A DNA stretch of 64,000 nt from Gonocerus acuteangulatus (Eukaryota; Arthropoda; Insecta; Hemiptera; Coreidae). The notes under the pieces are model-generated. The model worked only from the letters and a program-made list of their open reading frames with translations. It was not told where the DNA came from and did not search any database. Positions 5,731 to 44,999 of the stretch are shown piece by piece. The stretch lies in assembly GCA_946811695.1 (NCBI GenBank), contig OX328125.1, forward strand, positions 38,728,079 through 38,792,078. The letters are read 5' to 3'. Within the stretch, counting starts at the first letter, position 1, and the number at the start of each line of letters is the position of its first letter. Made by a program: the position numbers and the translations under genes.

Positions 5731-5749
5731 ATACCACAATATTAGCCAA

Positions 5750-5938
5750 GCCGGTGGTCTCACGTGGTCTAATGGCTAGCGCCTTGGATTCATAAGCGGG
5801 AGATGGTGGGTTCGATTCCCAACCTCCGGCAGGAATTTTATCAACCCACGGCTCGCTGTTAAAATTCCTCGCTGCACCCTGGATGTCGGCGCTAATGACC
5901 TAGATGTAGATGCGCCGTAAAAAAAAGAAGAAAAAAAA
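5750..5938 (+). repeat. tRNA-derived SINE (family A) with target duplication
   Basis: The head contains a pol III A box (TGGTCTAATGG) and B box (GGTTCGATTCC). The tail reads GGCGCTAATGACCTAGATG then GATGCGCCGTAAAA. A 9-bp duplication ATTAGCCAA brackets it (5741-5749 and 5939-5947). It is not a working tRNA gene: the body does not fold as one and continues into the SINE tail. Confidence 0.88.
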
Positions 5939-5947
5939 ATTAGCCAA

Positions 5948-6475: not shown

Positions 6476-7520
6476 GTGGAGAGTGATTGCTTCGAGTGTG
6501 TGCCGATAGACAATTCACTCTACAAGTGTGTCACGCACTATCTCTTTCTTACACCTCAGACGGTAGGCTTAAATAGACTTACACCTCAGACGGTAGGCTT
6601 ATTTAGGCTTACAGCTCTAGGCGATGCTTATAACGAAATGCATCCAGTGTTCAATAGCATTTACTAATAGGCTGGACACTCATAAGTCCTAGTCAGTGCT
6701 TCGAGTGTGTGCCGATAGACAATTCACTCTACAAGTGTGTCACGCACTATCTCTTTCTTACACCTCAGACGGTAGGCTTAAATAGGCTTACAGCTCTAGG
6801 CGATGCTTATAACGAAGTGCATCCATGCTGTCACGCACTATATCTTTCTTACACCTCAGACGGTAGGCTTAAATAGGCTTACAGCTCTAGGCGATGCTTA
6901 TAACGAAGTGCATCCAGTGTGTCACGCACTATCTCTTTCTTACACCTCAGACGGTAGGCTTAAATAGGCTTACAGCTCTAGGCGATGCTTATAACGAAGT
7001 GCATCCAGTGTGTCACGCACTATCTCTTTCTTACACCTCAGACGGTAGGCTTAAATAGGCTTACAGCTCTAGGCGATGCTTATAACGAAGTGCATCCAGT
7101 GTGTCACGGACTATCTCTTTCTTACACCTCAGACGGTAGGCTTAAATAGGCTTACAGCTCTAGGCGATGCTTATAACGAAGTGCATCCAGTGTGTCACGC
7201 ACTATCTCTTTCTTACACCTCAGACGGTAGGCTTAAATAGGCTTTCAGCTCTAGGCGATGCTTATAACGAAGTGCATCCAGTGTGTCACGCACTATCTCT
7301 TTCTTACACCTCAGACGGTAGGCTTAAATAGGCTTACAGCTCTAGGCGATGCTTATAACGAAGTGCATCCAGTGTGTCACGCACTATCTCTTTCTTACAC
7401 CTCAGACGGTAGGCTTAAATAGGCTTACAGCTCTAGGCGATGCTTATAACGAAATGCATCCAGTGTTCAATAGCATTTACTAATAGGCTGGACACCCATA
7501 AGTCCTAGTCAGTGCTACTT
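6476..7520. repeat. Minisatellite, 91-bp unit, nine copies, with higher-order flanks
   Basis: The unit includes CTTACACCTCAGACGGTAGG, ACAGCTCTAGGCGATGC and TATAACGAAGTGCATCCAG. The landmark AGGCGATGC recurs nine times (about 6618, 6797, 6889, 6980, 7071, 7162, 7254, 7345, 7436), mostly 91 bp apart. The first unit has an internal duplication of the CTCAGACGG segment. A flank GTTCAATAGCATTTACTAAT follows both the first and the last unit, so the array probably grew inside a larger duplicated segment. Copies are almost identical, implying recent homogenisation. Confidence 0.95.
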
Positions 7521-13194: not shown

Positions 13195-13387
13195 TTTTTT
13201 TTTTTTTTTTTTTTTTTACGGCGCATCAACTGTTTGGCTATTAGCGCCGGGCTTTCTACAGGTTGCCACCCTTTTCTAATGCCAACACATGGTCGGTCAC
13301 CCATTCAGGTACTGACCACGCCCGACGTTGCTTAACTTCGGTGATCTACGAGAACCGGTGTATTCAACGTGGCTATGGGCCGTTGGC
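13195..13387 (-). repeat. 5S-rRNA-derived SINE with exact 14-bp target duplication
   Basis: On the minus strand the head reads as 5S rRNA: CCACGTTGAATACACCGGTT, then ATCACCGAAGTTAAGCAACG, GTCGGGC and GAATGGGTGACCG. The tail carries GCGCTAATAGCCAAACAGTT and GATGCGCCGT before a poly(A) (T run at 13195-13216). The duplication CTTTTGTGAGTCAT is exact at 13181-13194 and 13388-13401. This is a retrotransposed SINE with an internal 5S pol III promoter, not a 5S gene. Confidence 0.92.
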
Positions 13388-19100: not shown

Positions 19101-19112
19101 TTATTTGTTTTA

Positions 19113-19246
19113 GCGCGGTTCCTCCCTCCCTTCATAGGGAGGAACCGCGCTTATAAGGTTGATCACATGAAACAATCCGGAAGTGCCGACTAGAAAATTT
19201 CGCGTTTCAGAACCCCTAGAGACCGAAAATAACGGTGGTTCAAATT

Positions 19247-19307
<61 letters not shown>

Positions 19308-19386
19308 CTGTTCGCGGATTTCTGGCGTCCCTAATGGTCCGATTTTGATGAAATTTGGTACAAAAATCCGTCGTCCAATTTGAAAG
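19113..19386 (-). mobile_element. Helitron-like element, family 1, 5'-truncated
   Basis: Begins (3' end on the minus strand) with TTTTAGCGCGGTTCCTCCCT and its hairpin partner GGGAGGAACCGCGC at 19113-19152. A (TA)n tract (19250-19303) and the conserved block GGTCCGATTTTGATGAAATT follow; the copy ends abruptly at about 19386. Non-coding. Confidence 0.75.
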
Positions 19387-19496
19387 GTTTTTTCTCGTAC
19401 CCGAATCCCAACCATCCCTTGACCTCGCATCTCTTTTTTTTTTTTATTTACTTTAACTTTTAAGTTTCATTTCGTTATTTACTTTACACATATAGG

Positions 19497-21214: not shown

Positions 21215-21551
21215 CGATATGTGAGTATGATAAGTTTATATTCACTTTTAATTTATGTATATATAAATTCTACCCAACATTGAGAAGAGCAAATCGCACA
21301 TTAGAGGCTCTAAAATCACAAATAAAGAAAATATAAATTTCCATGAGTACTAATTTGCGAAGATTGCTCTCGAAAGGTTCTAAACCTTATTGGTATACTA
21401 GTGGTTCATAGCGAACCCCATGAAGCTTTTATTGAATAACATAATTTTTTTTTTTTTTTTTTTACGGCGCTTCGACGTCTGGGCCATTAGCGCCGACATC
21501 CACGGCGCAGCGAGGATTTTTCCCAACGGGATGATAAAATTCCTGCCGCTG

Positions 21552-22636
21552 CACAGTGTAACGAAGTAGTGGAGATTATGGACAAAAATCATTAACCGCT
21601 AGTTATTTTCAAATAAACATTTTTATTAATTGAAATCAACTCAAAACAAGGTAACAATAGTATAATAATGCATACTATACGGCTATAATAATATTAATTG
21701 TAATATTTGTAATATTAATAGAAATAATATAGCAGGAAATAATATTATTAATAATCATATTATAAAATATAATATAGCTGTAACATATAATGTAGTAATT
21801 AACTTTGGTTTATGTCTGCCTCTAAGGTAGCGAGAAGGGCCATCAGAACGAGAATATCTTTTTTCTTGATAAAAATTAATAACCATTTCTTTTAAGTTGA
21901 TATATTGTTTCAACCAGTATTTATATAAGAGTTTTTTCTCTGCGGTGAACACGTTCCCACATTTTTTACATTTAATATAAGACTAAACTGGCAGCCTTTC
22001 TAATATTGCTTAAAATTTCTTTAGAAGCATCCAGCAGATCAAATTGAATCATTTGCCCGAGGATTGATACCGTTTTCTTAGATTTATCCACATTTTTTTA
22101 AATTTGAAAAATAAATTGATGGGTCTAAAAAAAAAAAAAAAATGGAATCGGCAAATTTCGGCAAACTAAATTGCTCAGTACATTATACTTGAGGTAAACT
22201 TTAAGCTCTAAAAAACTTGGGATGTTTTCAGATGAAGTTTCTTTGCTATGGGCTATCAAAATTTTGTGCATAAGAAAAATGTCAAAAATTAATTAAGAAT
22301 AATTCAGGATAAATAATAAGGGAATAATTACCCGTAATCAATTATATCACATAAAAAAGGAATAGTTTTGACGTAATTTCCTTCGGATGAATTAATAAAA
22401 ACACGGTCCTATCTTCAACGAGAGAGGCTCGAACTAATTGTTGGTATAAAGCAGATTTTGAAGACTTTGCCTTGTTTATAATGCTGCTAATGTGTTTGTT
22501 GATCAAAATAAGCTAATATTTATTAGTTTTTTACGATTTTAATTCCTTGAATGGTTTCTAAACTTAGCTAGAGGATTAAAAATTAAATATAAGAAAACAA
22601 AAATTTAGGTTTTTGTCCATTGGACGTTACACTGTG
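21552..22636 (-). mobile_element. Transib/RAG-like DNA transposon with RSS-like 23/13 ends, copy 1
   Basis: Left end: heptamer CACAGTG (21552-21558), 23-nt spacer, nonamer ACAAAAATC (21582-21590). Right end, inverted: CACAGTG (22630-22636), 13-nt spacer, nonamer ACAAAAACC (22608-22616). The V(D)J signal is CACAGTG and ACAAAAACC with 12 or 23 nt between; Transib transposases are the known relatives of RAG1 and make 5-bp GC-rich duplications. Flanking 5-mers are CGCTG (left) and CTCTG (right). The interior is AT-rich with a broken minus-strand frame shared with copy 2. Lengths and matches are read directly; the superfamily is inferred because no DDE domain is seen. Confidence 0.78.
21795..22130 (-). 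pseudogene. Remnant of the transposon's own protein, copy 1
   Basis: The minus strand encodes about 65 open residues containing AEKKLLYKYWLKQYINLKE and DGPSRYLRGRHKP, interrupted upstream by stops. The same protein is longer in copy 2 (43099-43898). The segment after RGRHK is deleted here by about 300 bp. No catalytic residues are identified. Confidence 0.55.
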
Positions 22637-22641
22637 CTCTG

Positions 22642-23352
22642 CACAGTGGTCAAGAACCGCCCAAATGCACTCAAAACTCAATAACATGTGATATTGTTGA
22701 TTTAGAAATTTCAAGTAGGACACGATTTTTCACTCGGATCACTTCAGACATTTTTTGCAGTCAACACTTGCTTGAGTACTGCAAAAAAAAATCCATCTTC
22801 GATTTGATTCGAACGTTTACATAGAGATAACGCGCGTCCGTCTTACCAAGTTCGTTCACGCCTAGCACCGAAATAGGCAAATTTATGCAGCCAATTTCGG
22901 TCTGGGCTCTTTCTACACATGTCCACGGAAAATGTAAGCCCGAAATTAGAGAGACGCAGAGAGACGCAAAATGTATAAGACAAAACGAAATTTGATACGT
23001 GTAATTTTTCTACTTTTTAAGTATCCCCGTCCACGTCGACGATTCTAAAAATAAAAAAATATTTTTTTTGGGCTTCGAACATCCCATTAAAACAAAAAAA
23101 AATGCGTCAACCTTATTGGTCTGAACAAGTAGAGTTGCAGGAACGATTTTGGTACATGAGGATTTGGGAATTTTCTTCGTTTCTTGTACTTCAATGATTA
23201 ACCACCGTCCTGCAACAACGGTGGTGGCCTAAAACTTAAGAAATGACACTCTCAGGAGGTCATTAACATATATATTTAAGGCCAAAATGTTCGGAGAAAA
23301 TACTTCAAAAAATCAAGTTTTGAGCGCTTTTTGACAATTTTTGACCACTGTG
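22642..23352. mobile_element. Second Transib-like element (CACAGTGGTCAA ends), non-autonomous
   Basis: The termini CACAGTGGTCAAGAACCGCC (22642) and inverted CACAGTGGTCAAAAATTGTC (23352) form imperfect TIRs of about 37 bp that also share CTCAAAACT further in. The length is 711 bp with no coding frame. The right flank is CGCTG (23353-23357), the left CTCTG (22637-22641). It abuts the 21552-22636 element with only that 5-mer between them. The long CAC-starting TIR and 5-bp duplication fit Transib. Confidence 0.72.
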
Positions 23353-23440
23353 CGCTGATGGAAATCGAGCCCACCATCTCCCGCTTTAGAATCTATGGCT
23401 TTAGTCACTAGACCACGGGAGACCCCGACTGACATAATAT

Positions 23441-24260
23441 TTATATTTTCCTCGCCTAAATAAATAATAAACGGGACGATCCATCCAGGTGAACACTTTC
23501 CCGGTAACGTTCCGAACCCCGAGGAGTATAATTAAGGAATTATCTCGCCAAGAGTTGATTACACCATTCGAGAGAGGTTTGAAAAGCGATGAAGAGACAA
23601 GATAGACACTGCGCGAGCGGTAGAGTGTAAGGTAGCTGGATGGTTTGGCTTGCTGGTTGGGGGTTTGCTATCTGCCATACTGGTAACAGGGGTACTCTAC
23701 TGATAGGGATGACAGGACGAGCTGATAACGATGACAGCTACGGAGTCCTGTTCATTGAGCTGCTCTTCTGATACCCAACCCTCTCCGCTCCTTCTCTATA
23801 CAGCTCCCTGCTCCTCTTCAGACCGTCTCGACAACCAACAAAATATATCACTAAACACCATTTAGTACCACTTAAAACTACCTACAAACCAAAAACTAAC
23901 CATATTACTAAAAACGACATTTATTCGATGCTATCCATTATTTTACATATATTTCTACTGTGGCCATTCATTATGCTCGAAAAATCGACTAACATAACTC
24001 AAAGGCAACCAAAATGTACATATATTAGTTTTGATGAATTTTAAAGATGTATAAAATATTTTAACTGTATCCAAGTACCCAAAACGAAAATTAGTTAGAA
24101 AAATTAGTTTTATCTAGGAATCTCAAAAACGGTTACAGAAGTGTACCTAGAAGCATACAAACGAAAAACCGTAAGCGCAATTATTTTATTTTTTGCGCGA
24201 GTTTTGCCCATCAATAGTGTTCCATTTCATATATAATATAATAATAAGATATTTGCCTAT
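23441..24260. other. Nothing recognised; locally GC-richer segment
   Basis: The segment 23560-23830 is less AT-rich than its surroundings and contains no long frame, repeat end or RNA fold that I recognise. Confidence 0.4.
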
Positions 24261-31134: not shown

Positions 31135-31145
31135 ATATATATATA

Positions 31146-31195
<50 letters not shown>

Positions 31196-31848
31196 CTGTT
31201 CGCTCTCTAGGTCGAAGACGAATGGTCCGATTTTGATGAAATTTCGTACAAAAATCCGTCGTCCAATTTGAAAGGTCAAGTTAGTTAACCAGCAAAATCC
31301 GTCCACTGGAAGATGGGTTTGGGGCGAAATTCGCGCAAAAAAATCGTAACGCTTACGTTTTTGAGTTCATAAGCTTGTAAGTACTCGGTTTATAGGCTTC
31401 TTGGGCTAGGAAACGAATGAAACCATTTTCAAGGCGATAGCTTTAACCGTTTAAGCGTTAACATTTTTCGAGAAAATCGGAAAAATAGATTTGAATGCCG
31501 TTTTTGGTTTGGGTACTTAGAATCATGGGATTCAGTTGAAACATTTTCTGCATGTTCAACTTTCATAAAAACTAATATATTGAAATTTTTGTTACGTTTG
31601 GAGTTAAGGAAGTGTTAGAATAAAATATTTTATTAACAGATATAAAACGTTTTGGTAACTTTGTATACTTTCCTTAATATCTTGAAAACGGTTGAGAATC
31701 TTGGTAAACGTAAGATTACCTTTAGAAAACTTACTAAATGCTCTACAAAAATGGTTCTGATGAAAGTTTTGATTAGGGGATGTCAATCGGAGAAATAAGT
31801 GCTTAAAACCTTAAAATAATTGATTTCGCTTATTCGACCTATTCTTTT
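31135..31848 (-). mobile_element. Helitron-like element, family 1, partial
   Basis: Runs from a (TA)n tract through GGTCCGATTTTGATGAAATT, TCGTAACGCTTACGTTTTTG and TTGAAAACGGTTGAGAATCT to TCGACCTATTC, where the next copy begins. The 3' hairpin is missing on the low-coordinate side. Confidence 0.65.
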
Positions 31849-33237
31849 AGCGCGGTTACTCCCTATCTACATAGGGAGAACCCGCTTATGAGGTTGACCT
31901 CATGACGCAATCCGGACGTGCCGACCAGAAACTTTCTCGTTTCAGACCCCATAGAGCACGAAAATATAGGTGGTTCAAATTTGTACATATATATATGTAT
32001 ATGTATATATTTTTATACATGCTTGTCTGTTCGCGCTCCTGACGGCTCAAAAATGGTCCGATTTTGTTGACATTTGGCACAAAATTCCGTCTTCTGATTT
32101 GAAAGGTCAAGTTCGTTAACCAGAAGAATCTGCCTACTGGAAGATAGTGTTTGTGGCGAAATTCGTGCAAAAAAAATCGTAACGCTTACGTTATTGAGTT
32201 CATATGCTTGCAGGTTTTATAGATTTCTTAACATAAGAAAACGAATGAAACCCTTTTTAAGGCGATATCTTTAACTGTTTCTGAGAAAAGTGGAATCAAT
32301 GTTTTTGTAAGTCATTATTTTTTTGTGGGTACTTAGAATCGCGGGATTCAATTAAATTTTTTTCTAGATCTTGAAAATTATTCCTAACTAAGATGTTTAA
32401 ATTTTGGTTATATTTCGAGTTAAGGAAGTATGCGAAAAAAAAATATTTTATTAATAAACATGAAAAGTTTTCGGATCTTCATACACTATTCGTAAATATC
32501 TCGATAACGGTTGGGAAATCGTGCTAAATGGAAGGTAGCCATTCGAATGCTTACTAAATTCTCTACAAAAAAGGTTCTGAAGCAATATTCGATGAGGCTA
32601 CGTCAATCAGAGATGTAAGCGCTTAAAACTTAAGAAGTGTTTGTATTGATGTTTTGAAAGGGGTTTTCTCTTTGTTTATCTCACTTTTTAATTGGTTGTT
32701 TCTTGTTTTAAATTGAATTTATCAGTAAAATTAGTATTGTAGTAAAATAAGCTAAGAAACGGTGAAAGGTTTGGTAATAATAAGTTTGGAGTGGCTGTGG
32801 TAATCATGATGGCAGTGGCTAATCATGATGACGTAGTTTGTTTTGAATTCTCCTCTCTATATAACCTTCCTCGTAGCCTCCAACTGAAGTTATCGTTATT
32901 TCATATTTTATATAAAGATTTAACCCACGACAGAATGGAATTTTATTCGTCATGAAGCACATATTTACAGTTAATTATAACAGTAAAACGAATTTGCTAG
33001 TAAAACAAGATACTTTAAATGACAACGAATTTTTAATTGTTTAGAATAAAGCCTTCTCAGCAGTAGTCGAAGATTAAGTACATAAATGTATTGACTTATA
33101 CAGATTAAGAATTATCCGCTTCTGTGTAAGTTGGCTACTGTCAGTTTCCTGTGATTTGTGATGCTAATCTATTCCATTTCTTCGAGGTGTACGTAATCGC
33201 GCTAAGATGGCGCAGTTCCCGCGAGTCGGACTTTTGT
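31849..33237 (-). mobile_element. Helitron-like element, family 1, long and apparently end-to-end
   Basis: The 3' terminus is TTTTAGCGCGGTTACTCCCT with its hairpin partner at 31878-31892. The 5' terminus, in reverse, is GCGCTAAGATGGCGCAGTTC then GCGAGTCGGACTTTT (33198-33237). The two outer regions share the GCGC-GGTT block, the subterminal inverted repeat of such elements. 1.39 kb, non-coding. Confidence 0.65.
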
Positions 33238-36724: not shown

Positions 36725-37555
36725 ATTCCTCACAAATGCGGGTTCATTTCTCTTCTGTAGATTACATTGGTCCTGTCTTTTTGTGGGATCGGGTCTTTTA
36801 GAGTCGTATGTAAGTTTTTCAGTTTGTTCTGTGTCGATAGTCCTAGTTTTAGAGTGGGGAATGTATCGCGTAGGGATTTTTGGATTTTTTCTGTGAGGTT
36901 TGGGATATATGGGAGGCCTCTGAATTGAGGGACAATATTGTCTTGGGTAGTGGGGATGGGTTTAGGGTTATTAAAAGAATTTATGAGACGGGTGATAATG
37001 TTGGTAGGAAATCCATTGGTAGTAAGAATATCGACGATTCGGGATTTGTTGACAGGGTGAAATTTGGTGTCGGATAGGGAGAGGGCTCGATTTATTAGCT
37101 TGCTGGCAGTATTGAGGATTTGGTGTTAGGGGTGTGAGGAAAGGTAATGGAGAAGCCGTCCCGAGTAAGTGGGTTTGGTATACCAATCAGTGGATATAGA
37201 GCCGTCTGTATTTCTTATGAGGAGTATGTCAAGGAAAGGAAGGGAGTTGTTAGTTCCGGTCTCGATGGTGAATATTAACGGGGGGTGGTAGGAGTTAAAG
37301 GCTGTTAGAATTTCTGGAATCTTATCAGGATTAATTATGAGGAAGAGGTCGTCAACATATTTTTTAAGAAAAATAATATCGTCGGGGAACATGGGGAGGA
37401 TTTGGTCAAGGAGGTCATTAAGGGTAATACTGGAAAGGCCAGGAGCGAGGCAGTTACCCATGGCGAGGCCAGAGATCTGGTTGGAGAATTTATCTTGGAA
37501 TAGGAGGTATCCGGATTTGCAGCAGAGGGATAGGGAAATGATCCCGCATTTTTGA
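36725..37555 (-). pseudogene. Penelope-like reverse transcriptase, C-terminal RT part, frameshifted
   Basis: Reading the minus strand from 37555: GIISLSLCCKSGYLLFQDKF, then SGLAMGNCLAP, the catalytic box KYVDDLFLI, FTIETGTNNSLPFLDILL and STDWYTKPTYSGRLLHYLSS. One frameshift near 37128 is followed by LINRALSLSDTKFHPVN and a linker ending TNVIYRREMNPHL and a stop. These are the late RT motifs and thumb region of PLEs. The N-terminal RT motifs and the GIY-YIG endonuclease are absent; the sequence stops just where the endonuclease would begin. The frame is otherwise well kept, so decay is recent. Confidence 0.9.
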
Positions 37556-37579
37556 GGAATAGTTCTCTATCTTCCCATC

Positions 37580-42895: not shown

Positions 42896-42967
42896 TAGCA
42901 TGTTTTCTCCTTCCCTCTATAGGGAGGAAACCCGATTATGACGTCAATCCCTTGATTCAATCCGGCG
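42896..42967 (-). repeat. Family 1 Helitron-like 3' end, split by the CACAGTG transposon
   Basis: TTTTAGCATGTTTTCTCCTT and AGGGAGGAAACCCGATTATG are the decayed hairpin. The sequence reaches CAATCCGGCG at 42967 and resumes after the transposon at 44937 with CGGCGGTGCCGATGAC, as expected for continuous family 1 sequence. Confidence 0.65.
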
Positions 42968-43098
42968 CACAGTGTAACGAAGTAGTGAGGATTGTGGACA
43001 AAAATCATTAACCACTAGTTATTTTCAAATAAACATTTTTATCAATTGAAATCAACTCAAAACAAGGTAACAATGGTATAATAATGCATACTATACGG

Positions 43099-43898
43099 CT
43101 ATAATAATATTAATTGTAATATTAATAGAAATAATATAGCAGGTAATAATATTATTAATAACAATATTATAAAATATATTATAACGGTAACATATAATGT
43201 AGTAATAGTATAGTAGTAAATTATACTTGTAGTAATATTGCCATAGAATAATGATATTTTACCATTTCCTATGAAATTATTAAATATTTTTTTGAATGCC
43301 GAGACTGAATCGTTTTTGGATTCTTGAGAATGTAAACTTATATCCAAACCAATATCTATTTGATCATTAATGTCATCCTCTATTATACATTCATTAATGT
43401 CTGGACTGATTTTCCTTTGCCTTTTTATATTTTTTCTCCGTAAAAAAAGCTCTAGGCAAGATATCAGAAGAACCCGGCGCTTTTTCGATCTCTCACACAA
43501 CGCTGTAAACTCTTTTTTATGTCTGCCTCTGAGGAAGCCGGAAGGGCCATCAGGGCGAATATTTTTTTTCTTGATAAAAATTAATAACAATTTGTTCTAA
43601 GTTGATATATTGTTTCAACCAGTATTTATATAAGAGTTTTTTTTTCTCTGCGTTGAACACGTTCCCACATTTTTTACATATAATATAGGACTAAACTGGC
43701 AGTTTTTTTAATATTGCTTAATATTTCTTTAGGAGCATCCTGCAGATTAAATTGAATCATTTGCCCAAGGATTAATACCGTCTTCTTGGATTTATCAACA
43801 TTTTTTTTCACATTTGGAATAAAAAAATGATGATGGATCGAAAAATAAAAATCTTTGGAATAGGCAAATTTCGGCAAACTAAATTGACCTCTGTACAT
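43099..43898 (-). pseudogene. Transposon-encoded protein remnant, copy 2
   Basis: Minus-strand pieces in two or more frames: KSKKTVLILGQMIQFNLQDA and PKEILSNIKKTASLVLYYM (43898-43674), then CGNVFNAEKK, and a 163-codon stretch from 43590 with RPDGPSGFLRGRHKKEFTAL, CERSKKRRVLL and DINECIIEDDINDQIDIG. The basic KEFTALCERSKKRR block looks like the N-terminal region of large transposases; I associate it with RAG1/Transib-type proteins only from weak memory. No DDE residues are visible and the end is AT-rich non-coding. Frameshifts and stops make it non-functional. Confidence 0.5.
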
Positions 43899-44070
43899 TA
43901 TACTTGAGGTAAACTTTAAGCTCTAAAAAACTTGGGATGTGTTCTCATGAAGTTTTTTTGCTATGGCCTATCAAAATTTTGTACCTAAAAAAATTCAAAG
44001 ATCAATGAAAAATAATTCAGGATAAATAATAAGGGCTTAATTACCCATAATCAATATATCACATAAAAAA

Positions 44071-44461
44071 GTCCGACTCGCAGGAACTGCATCATCTTAG
44101 CGCGGTTCCGTTCTTACCGTTATGAAAATGTTTCAACTGAATCCCATGATTCTAAGTACCCAAACAAAAAACGGTATTCAAAAACTATGTTTCCAATTTT
44201 CTCAAAAACGGTTAAAGCTATCGCCTTGAAAATGATTTCATTCGTTTTCCTAGCCCAAGAAGCCTATAAAACGAGTACTTACAAGCTTATGAACTCAAAA
44301 ACGTAAGCGTTACGATTTTTTTTGCGCGAATTTCGCCCCAAACGCCATCTTCCAGTGGACGGATTTTGCTGGTTAACGAACTTGACCTTTCAAATTGGAC
44401 GACGGATTTTTGTACCAAATTTCATCAAAATCGGACCATTCGTCTTCTACCTAGAGAGTGA

Positions 44462-44518
<57 letters not shown>

Positions 44519-44657
44519 AATTTGAACCACCATCATTTTCGGTCTCTAGGGGTTCTGAAACGCAAAATTTTCTAGTCGGCACTTCTGGATTGCGTCATGA
44601 GATCAACCTTATAAGCGGGGTTCCTCCCTATGGGGGAGGGAGGGACCGCGCTAAAAA
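44071..44657 (+). mobile_element. Helitron-like element, family 1, complete copy with known empty site
   Basis: 5' GTCCGACTCGCAGGAACTGC and TCTTAGCGCGGTTCCG. Internal CGGATTTTGCTGGTTAACGA and a (TA)n tract (44465-44515). 3' hairpin AGCGGGGTTCCTCCCT / GGGAGGGACCGCGCT then AAAAA. Copy 1 of the host transposon (22348-22372) lacks it and reads through as TCACATAAAAAAGGAATAG, which fixes the insertion limits to within an AAAAAG overlap. 587 bp, non-coding. Confidence 0.85.
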
Positions 44658-44999
44658 GGAATAGTTTTGACGTAATTTCCTTCGGATGACTTAATAAAAA
44701 CACTGTCCTATCTTCAACGAGAGAGGCTCTAACTGATTGCTGCTATAAAGCAGGTTTTAAAGACTTTGCCTTGTTTATAATACTGCTAATGTGTTTGTTA
44801 ATCAAAATAAACCTAATATTTATTAGTTTTATACGATTTTAATTCCTTGAATAGTTTCTAAACATAGCTAGAGGCTTGAAAATTAAATATAAGAAAACAA
44901 AAAATTAGGTTTTTGTCCATTGGACGTTACACTGTGCGGCGGTGCCGATGACATCGTGTTTTCTTCATTTCTACCTTTCTGAGGAATATGCTTACGTTT

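Follow-up and report, generated by a model that had tools for sequence, protein, structure and literature searches.

A Transib-type element with 23/13 RSS-like ends in Gonocerus acuteangulatus probably belongs to a high-copy non-autonomous family

Can a transposon in an insect genome end in a signal pair of the kind that RAG recognises in vertebrates and, if so, what sort of element carries it? The question arose in a 64,000-nucleotide stretch of Gonocerus acuteangulatus DNA (the window), in which a preliminary description had placed a transposon with an exact CACAGTG heptamer at both ends, followed by nonamers matching the vertebrate signal at 8 of 9 bases after a 23-nt spacer and at 9 of 9 after a 13-nt spacer. 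Each of these elements was borne out, and the RSS-like signal pair of this transposon, copy A, is real (Table 1). The right-end spacer is 13 nt and not 12, the two termini share their outermost 12 bases in inverted orientation, and the flanking 5-mers match at 4/5 positions, an imperfection that reflects the presence of a second element, C, directly abutting copy A. Nonamers matching at 8/9 or better occur in the window at a frequency of 3.2e-4 (41 places, including the four signals of copies A and B), from which the probability that a single element combines a 22-24 with an 11-13 arrangement is about 1.8e-6. Heptamer-ended pairs with 5-bp repeats (at least 4/5) were found three times in the window (A, B and C); 40 Markov sequences gave 0.475 on average.

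Table 1. Positions in the window of copies A and B, element C and copies of the SINE that holds A and C.
Feature	Position	Strand	Remarks
Copy A, non-autonomous Transib-type element, 1085 bp	21552..22636	- (gene remnant)	3.8% from subfamily consensus
Copy A, outer left target repeat CGCTG	21547..21551	.	
Copy A, left heptamer CACAGTG (23-type end)	21552..21558	+	
Copy A, left nonamer ACAAAAATC	21582..21590	+	after 23-nt spacer, 8/9
Copy A, remnant reading frame with ...YLRGRHK	21758..21982	-	truncated there by internal deletion
Copy A, right nonamer ACAAAAACC	22608..22616	-	after 13-nt spacer, 9/9
Copy A, right heptamer CACAGTG (13-type end)	22630..22636	-	
CTCTG, 5-mer common to A and C	22637..22641	.	
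Element C, 711 bp, RSS-ended, differs from A, abuts A	22642..23352	.	near-symmetric TIRs ~41 bp, CACAGTGGTCAA...CTCAAAACT
Outer right target repeat of A-C pair, CGCTG	23353..23357	.	
Left part of SINE split by A-C	21442..21548	.	
Right part of SINE split by A-C	23359..23441	.	
Unoccupied SINE copy (empty-site control), tRNA-like	5738..5942	-	Rfam tRNA-Sec model 28.1 bits, below gathering
Copy B, same family as A, 1969 bp including nested insertion	42968..44936	-	
Copy B, left target duplication CGGCG	42963..42967	.	
Copy B, 23-type RSS-like end CACAGTG-N23-ACAAAAATC	42968..43006	+	
Copy B, nonamer-binding-region-like motif RGRHKKEFTALCERSKKRR	43474..43530	-	
Unrelated repeat nested in B	44072..44652	.	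further copies near 31144-31548, 31839-32356, 19108-19388
Copy B, 13-type RSS-like end CACAGTG-N13-ACAAAAACC	44908..44936	-	
Copy B, right target duplication CGGCG	44937..44941	.	

Copy B was located via the 12-base end. Its alignment to A falls into three blocks that are 88-94% identical; it carries about 310 bp absent from A and is flanked by a perfect CGGCG/CGGCG duplication; the unrelated repeat nested within it contains an (AT)n tract. Elsewhere the window holds a 5S rRNA-like stretch (13280-13387; Rfam, 45.1 bits), perhaps a 5S-derived SINE, a tandem array of 8.1 copies of a 91-bp unit (6734-7466; 98% matches), and minus-strand reverse-transcriptase-like fragments (36733-37566; Pfam RVT_1 E 0.009, below cut-off) that we take to be Penelope-like.

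Searching the host assembly (1,106,117,616 bases in 135 contigs) with the element ends revealed a high-copy family: the exact 29-bp right signal occurred 331 times (157 + 174) and left ends directly following CGNCG occurred 361 times (192 + 169), with no occurrence of either reversed-pattern control. The exact end patterns had no match in viral_contigs or in genome_contigs. We compared 36 elements, comprising A, B, 18 of 20 places fetched by the left end and 16 of 29 fetched by the interior. The left-end places were taken from 40 scored ones, and the two lacking both ends (L026, L028) were dropped; the interior sample held 30 loci, one of them (L030) being B itself, and 13 of the others were dropped as their two ends were not both unique. 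This sample was picked by similarity to A and B (18 elements by the left end of A) and is not random.

The 36 elements span 910 to 2320 bp and fall into two subfamilies with consensus lengths of 1083 and 1383 bp, from which the 29 aligned copies diverge by 2.4-4.5%, with one exception at 8.2%. The heptamer, the 23- and 13-nt spacers and both nonamers are all kept in the family consensus. The heptamer is exact at 32/34 left and 30/34 right ends (L015 and L032 were excluded from this end profile, and are included in the count of 36). The asymmetric long/short arrangement ascribed to copy A also holds across the family: a nonamer with at least 8/9 matches is present at N23 in 34/36 left ends and at N13 in 31/36 right ends, 21 of the latter being 9/9. 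The 5-bp target duplication is exact in 19/36 elements and 4/5 in 16/36; it is absent only from L015, the right end of which is rearranged.

At the left end, nonamer columns are conserved at 97-100%, as compared with 53-85% in some spacer columns, a variation that is mostly a subfamily difference; at the right end, conservation is 79-100% in the nonamer and 94-100% in the spacer. Given the low divergence, the choice of copies by similarity and a right-end nonamer that conservation does not set apart from its spacer, the conserved nonamers speak only weakly for a function in this family.

Which superfamily the elements belong to can be judged in part from their target duplications, which are 8 bp long in hAT and 4 bp in Chapaev elements. 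Parsed as CA plus CAGTG, the heptamer has a hAT-like start, but the duplications here are 5 bp and mostly CGNCG among the 36 elements, and the 361 left ends counted in the assembly follow this same 5-mer. We therefore rejected hAT membership, and consider it extremely unlikely that the family stems from hAT, CMC/Chapaev or any other superfamily with CAC-like ends. CGNCG, seen in at least one repeat copy of 30/36 elements, is described as the Transib insertion site in the available part of PMC4735498 and in a table of PMC5704228 (likewise seen in part), so that the 5-bp duplications expected of Transib were found together with the Transib target consensus. Neither outcome that had been named as arguing against the initial proposal was seen: the consensus keeps its nonamers, and no other superfamily is implicated.

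A second line of evidence comes from transposase genes in the same genome. A Transib probe matched the solved structure 6pqn (E 7.3e-100) and, weakly, RAG1L (6b40, E 0.039) and RAG1 (3jbw, E 0.071). In the genome, where 148 of 1041 candidates were scored, it gave at least 154 matches, several of which are pieces of one copy, with E 2.8e-94 as the best among the matches listed. At one locus, L063, a 498-aa stop-free stretch aligns to 6pqn over 462 residues (E 1.5e-100) and retains the presumed catalytic residues, namely the aspartates in KWG-DG and TM-D and the glutamate in LSEE-SEA. The Transib gene at this locus (L063:274-2265), the core of which is covered by the stop-free stretch, also has a GRPTKSF N-terminal region, in the same frame and upstream of a stop. 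Together, the consensus ends, the 5-bp CGNCG duplications and these genes support the assignment of copy A as a Transib-type element with RSS-like ends.

The closeness of these transposases to the solved Transib-type enzyme also speaks against descent of the family from a RAGL transposon (RAG1L plus RAG2L), which we consider highly unlikely. In favour of such a descent, both ends are closer to vertebrate signals than to the invertebrate RAGL consensus given in the available part of PMC7204232. The RAG1 profile PF12940 gave one sub-threshold match (L009), which by eye consists of unrelated repeats, and the RAG2 profile PF03089 gave none; the first of these results carries little weight against RAGL and the second none, because 14 control genomes were equally silent for both profiles.

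If the family is of Transib origin, what remains of its gene? Copies A and B encode no catalytic core, and their interiors keep a decayed coding piece on the minus strand, which in the B type contains RGRHKKEFTALCERSKKRR; the B-type consensus has a 145-aa open frame. Searches with a 202-aa query returned nothing convincing from proteins, Pfam or solved structures. Against 20 Transib loci (tblastn), the best match of the B-type piece was in L078 at KRGRPKKAFEDAKERTKKK (40% over 40 aa, E 0.42), with L077 (E 1.0) and L062 (E 2.7) matched at the same motif. All three matches coincide with a GRP-type motif that lies upstream of where the locus matches Transib; 12 other matches (E 0.8 to 8) lie elsewhere. 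A profile of five N-terminal regions placed the A/B interiors at the top of 4665 segments (best single copy E 0.0028, consensus 0.077, first match outside the element 0.17), a ranking that is partly circular, since these tblastn matches themselves supplied three of its five regions. A nonamer-binding domain with a conserved GRP is described for both Transib subgroups (PMC9435367, in part). Judged by these weak similarities, the remnant probably resembles the nonamer-binding region of Transib, and with this identity the lost gene would have had its 5’ side at the 13-type end and its 3’ side at the 23-type end.

The preliminary description had also called for a full-length copy encoding the transposase. 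Transib genes are indeed present in the genome, but among the 20 Transib loci examined no autonomous copy with A/B ends was found. L078 was rejected as the autonomous parent, its examined flanks having no A/B-type ends. According to the available part of PMC4411706, autonomous Transibs usually occur in one or few copies; this genome holds many transposase relics.

Two near-complete Transib copies with broken frames, L062 (~3.56 kb by coordinates) and L068 (~3.67 kb), could be read to their ends. On its 5’ side L062 has CCTCG-CACAGTG-N22-CCAAAAATA and on its 3’ side CACAGTG-N22-CCAAAAATC plus CCTCG; the corresponding ends of L068 are CGGCG-CACAGTG-N22-CCAAAAATC and CACAGTG-N25-CCAAAAATC plus CGGCG. 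Both 5’ ends thus read CACAGTG-N22-CCAAAAATM. These elements share with A and B the heptamer, a TGGCCAAAAAT at N22 or N25 and the 5-bp duplications, and their transposase matches the same probe that matches 6pqn. They differ from A and B in having near-symmetric long spacers at both ends, which in L062 resemble those of the symmetric Transibs with 20-22 spacers described in PMC8355894 (in part). At the DNA level, we detected no similarity between L062 or L068 and the A/B interiors, except for a stretch of the repeat nested in B that occurs in L062.

Such symmetric ends bear on whether the enzyme reads the nonamer at all. It may be that the family is Transib, but that the nonamer match and the 23/13 spacing are relics which the enzyme ignores, recognition being confined to the heptamer region, a substantial possibility to which we give somewhat less than an even chance. 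The N22/N22 and N22/N25 ends of L062 and L068 fit with it, as does the right-end nonamer being no better conserved than the spacer, and invertebrate RAGL enzymes are predicted to rely mainly on the outer 15-17 bp (PMC7204232, in part). L066, which has Transib coding sequence and CAC ends (CACACTG/CACACAC, TSD CGGCG) without a clear nonamer, points the same way, though this element (L066:446-2683, inside a SINE and flanked by perfect CGGCG repeats) is rearranged or nested, because a second right-type end lies within it, at 1507. On the other hand, TGG[AC]CAAAAA recurs at the ends of A and B (N23, N13) and of L062 and L068 (N22 to N25), which suggests a shared bound element, and the left-end nonamer columns are better conserved than some of the spacer columns beside them.

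We conclude, with a probability of roughly 0.9, that A and B belong to a non-autonomous Transib family of high copy number, which would have arisen by internal deletion and be mobilised in trans. The deletion of an autonomous Transib would have removed the catalytic core, leaving a decayed N-terminal piece and both ends, on which a transposase from elsewhere in the genome would then act. The core of this enzyme would bind the heptamer and its N-terminal region the A-rich nonamer; one 23-type end would pair with one 13-type end before excision, and the element would insert with a 5-bp stagger at CGNCG. Mobilisation in trans, nonamer binding and asymmetric pairing are steps that we infer. The spacers differ by 10 bases, which is close to a single turn of the helix and similar to the difference in the vertebrate 12/23 pair.

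The neighbourhood of copy A holds a further peculiarity. The inverted ends of element C, roughly 32/41 identical by eye, adjoin those of A in the order CGCTG-A-CTCTG-C-CGCTG, and the joined flanks of the pair align to the unoccupied SINE copy (5942-5738) over 206 columns at 81%. Since the flanks align across an empty SINE and the outer repeat is perfect, A plus C occupy one SINE together. Either one element inserted into the 5-mer of the other, with one base changed later, or the two moved jointly. The abutment of copy A and an RSS-ended element within one SINE site is new here. Another near-tandem pair was observed at L067:557-950, in which 13 bases separate a C-type right end from the 3’-side end of another Transib (CACTGTG-CAGCGGGCCGGCG-CACAGTG). 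C and Transib loci repeatedly match over ~27 bp (E 0.007-0.008), which we did not take as a sign of homology.

The same SINE is a frequent target of the family. Apart from A, which lies inside it, and B, which lies outside, 28 of the 34 fetched elements matched the 15-base SINE site CCTGC[CGCCG]GTGGG at 11/15 or more positions, inserted 16 times one way and 12 times the other, and their outer flanks vary by eye. The site comes shortly after the T-arm-like GGTTCGATTCCCACC in the tRNA-like head of the SINE; the unoccupied copy matches the Rfam tRNA-Sec model with E 8.8e-4, and ARAGORN found no tRNA in the SINE site consensus. SINE-flanked CGNCG-CAC junctions also occur beside transposase matches, on both sides of L066 and on one side each of L070, L075 and L077, where they are presumably the ends of those elements; they are absent from L062 and L068. 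SINE-like sites make up 2/118 of the CGNCG sites in the window plus the 20 Transib loci. By eye, the inserted sites are mostly of the form c[CGNCG]g, and outside SINEs the window has a single CCGNCGG (two both-strand counts), so that a preference for this rare 7-base target may account for the hotspot with no need for tethering. The hotspot at one SINE position, shared with junctions of other Transib families, is new here, among copies chosen by similarity. The consulted parts of the literature on Transib with tRNA-derived SINEs did not yield a SINE target, and we make no wider claim on its unpublished status.

How unusual is the end pair itself? Asymmetric Transibs with spacers of 12/23 +/-1 and some canonical heptamers and nonamers are listed in the available part of PMC8355894 (Drosophila Transib5; Anopheles Transib2, N1, N2 and N3), in which other Transibs are symmetric with spacers of 20-22, and asymmetric ends are ascribed to every Transib of subgroup I and to some of subgroup II (PMC9435367, in part). 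The Drosophila and Anopheles elements share with A and B the superfamily, the CAC heptamer, the A-rich nonamer and spacers of about 12 and 23. A and B differ in their 23/13 spacing, in heptamers that are exactly the vertebrate consensus and in one nonamer of 9/9, the known elements being compared by description only; their own family numbers hundreds of copies and has a SINE hotspot. With the vertebrate RSS (CACAGTG-N12/23-ACAAAAACC, PMC9723617) they share the heptamer, exact twice, the nonamers at 8/9 and 9/9, and the long/short pairing; they depart from it in having 13 rather than 12, and in being a transposon that duplicates CGNCG. The notability claimed at the outset thus holds in that the pair is real and unusually exact, and falls back in that asymmetric Transib ends are already in print, which makes the pair less surprising than first thought. 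It is a very good example of such ends, in hundreds of copies.

Target choice and the tandem partner proved more interesting than expected. A bolder reading, which we regard as unlikely, is that of a Transib system obeying true 23/12-like pairing without RAG2, the families of which are guided to a tRNA-derived SINE at its acceptor-side edge, perhaps via the Pol III promoter machinery rather than DNA sequence alone. According to the available part of PMC8355894, some Transibs are the only known case of 12/23-type asymmetry outside V(D)J recombination, and RAG1 of jawed vertebrates recognises such asymmetry only as a complex with RAG2. The A/B family bears on the origin of the 12/23 rule: its close match to the vertebrate signals, its abundance and the many transposase relics around it make it a good substrate for asking whether an enzyme without RAG2 already favours asymmetric pairs. 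The SINE hotspot, in turn, is a natural target-choice experiment for RAG-type transposition.
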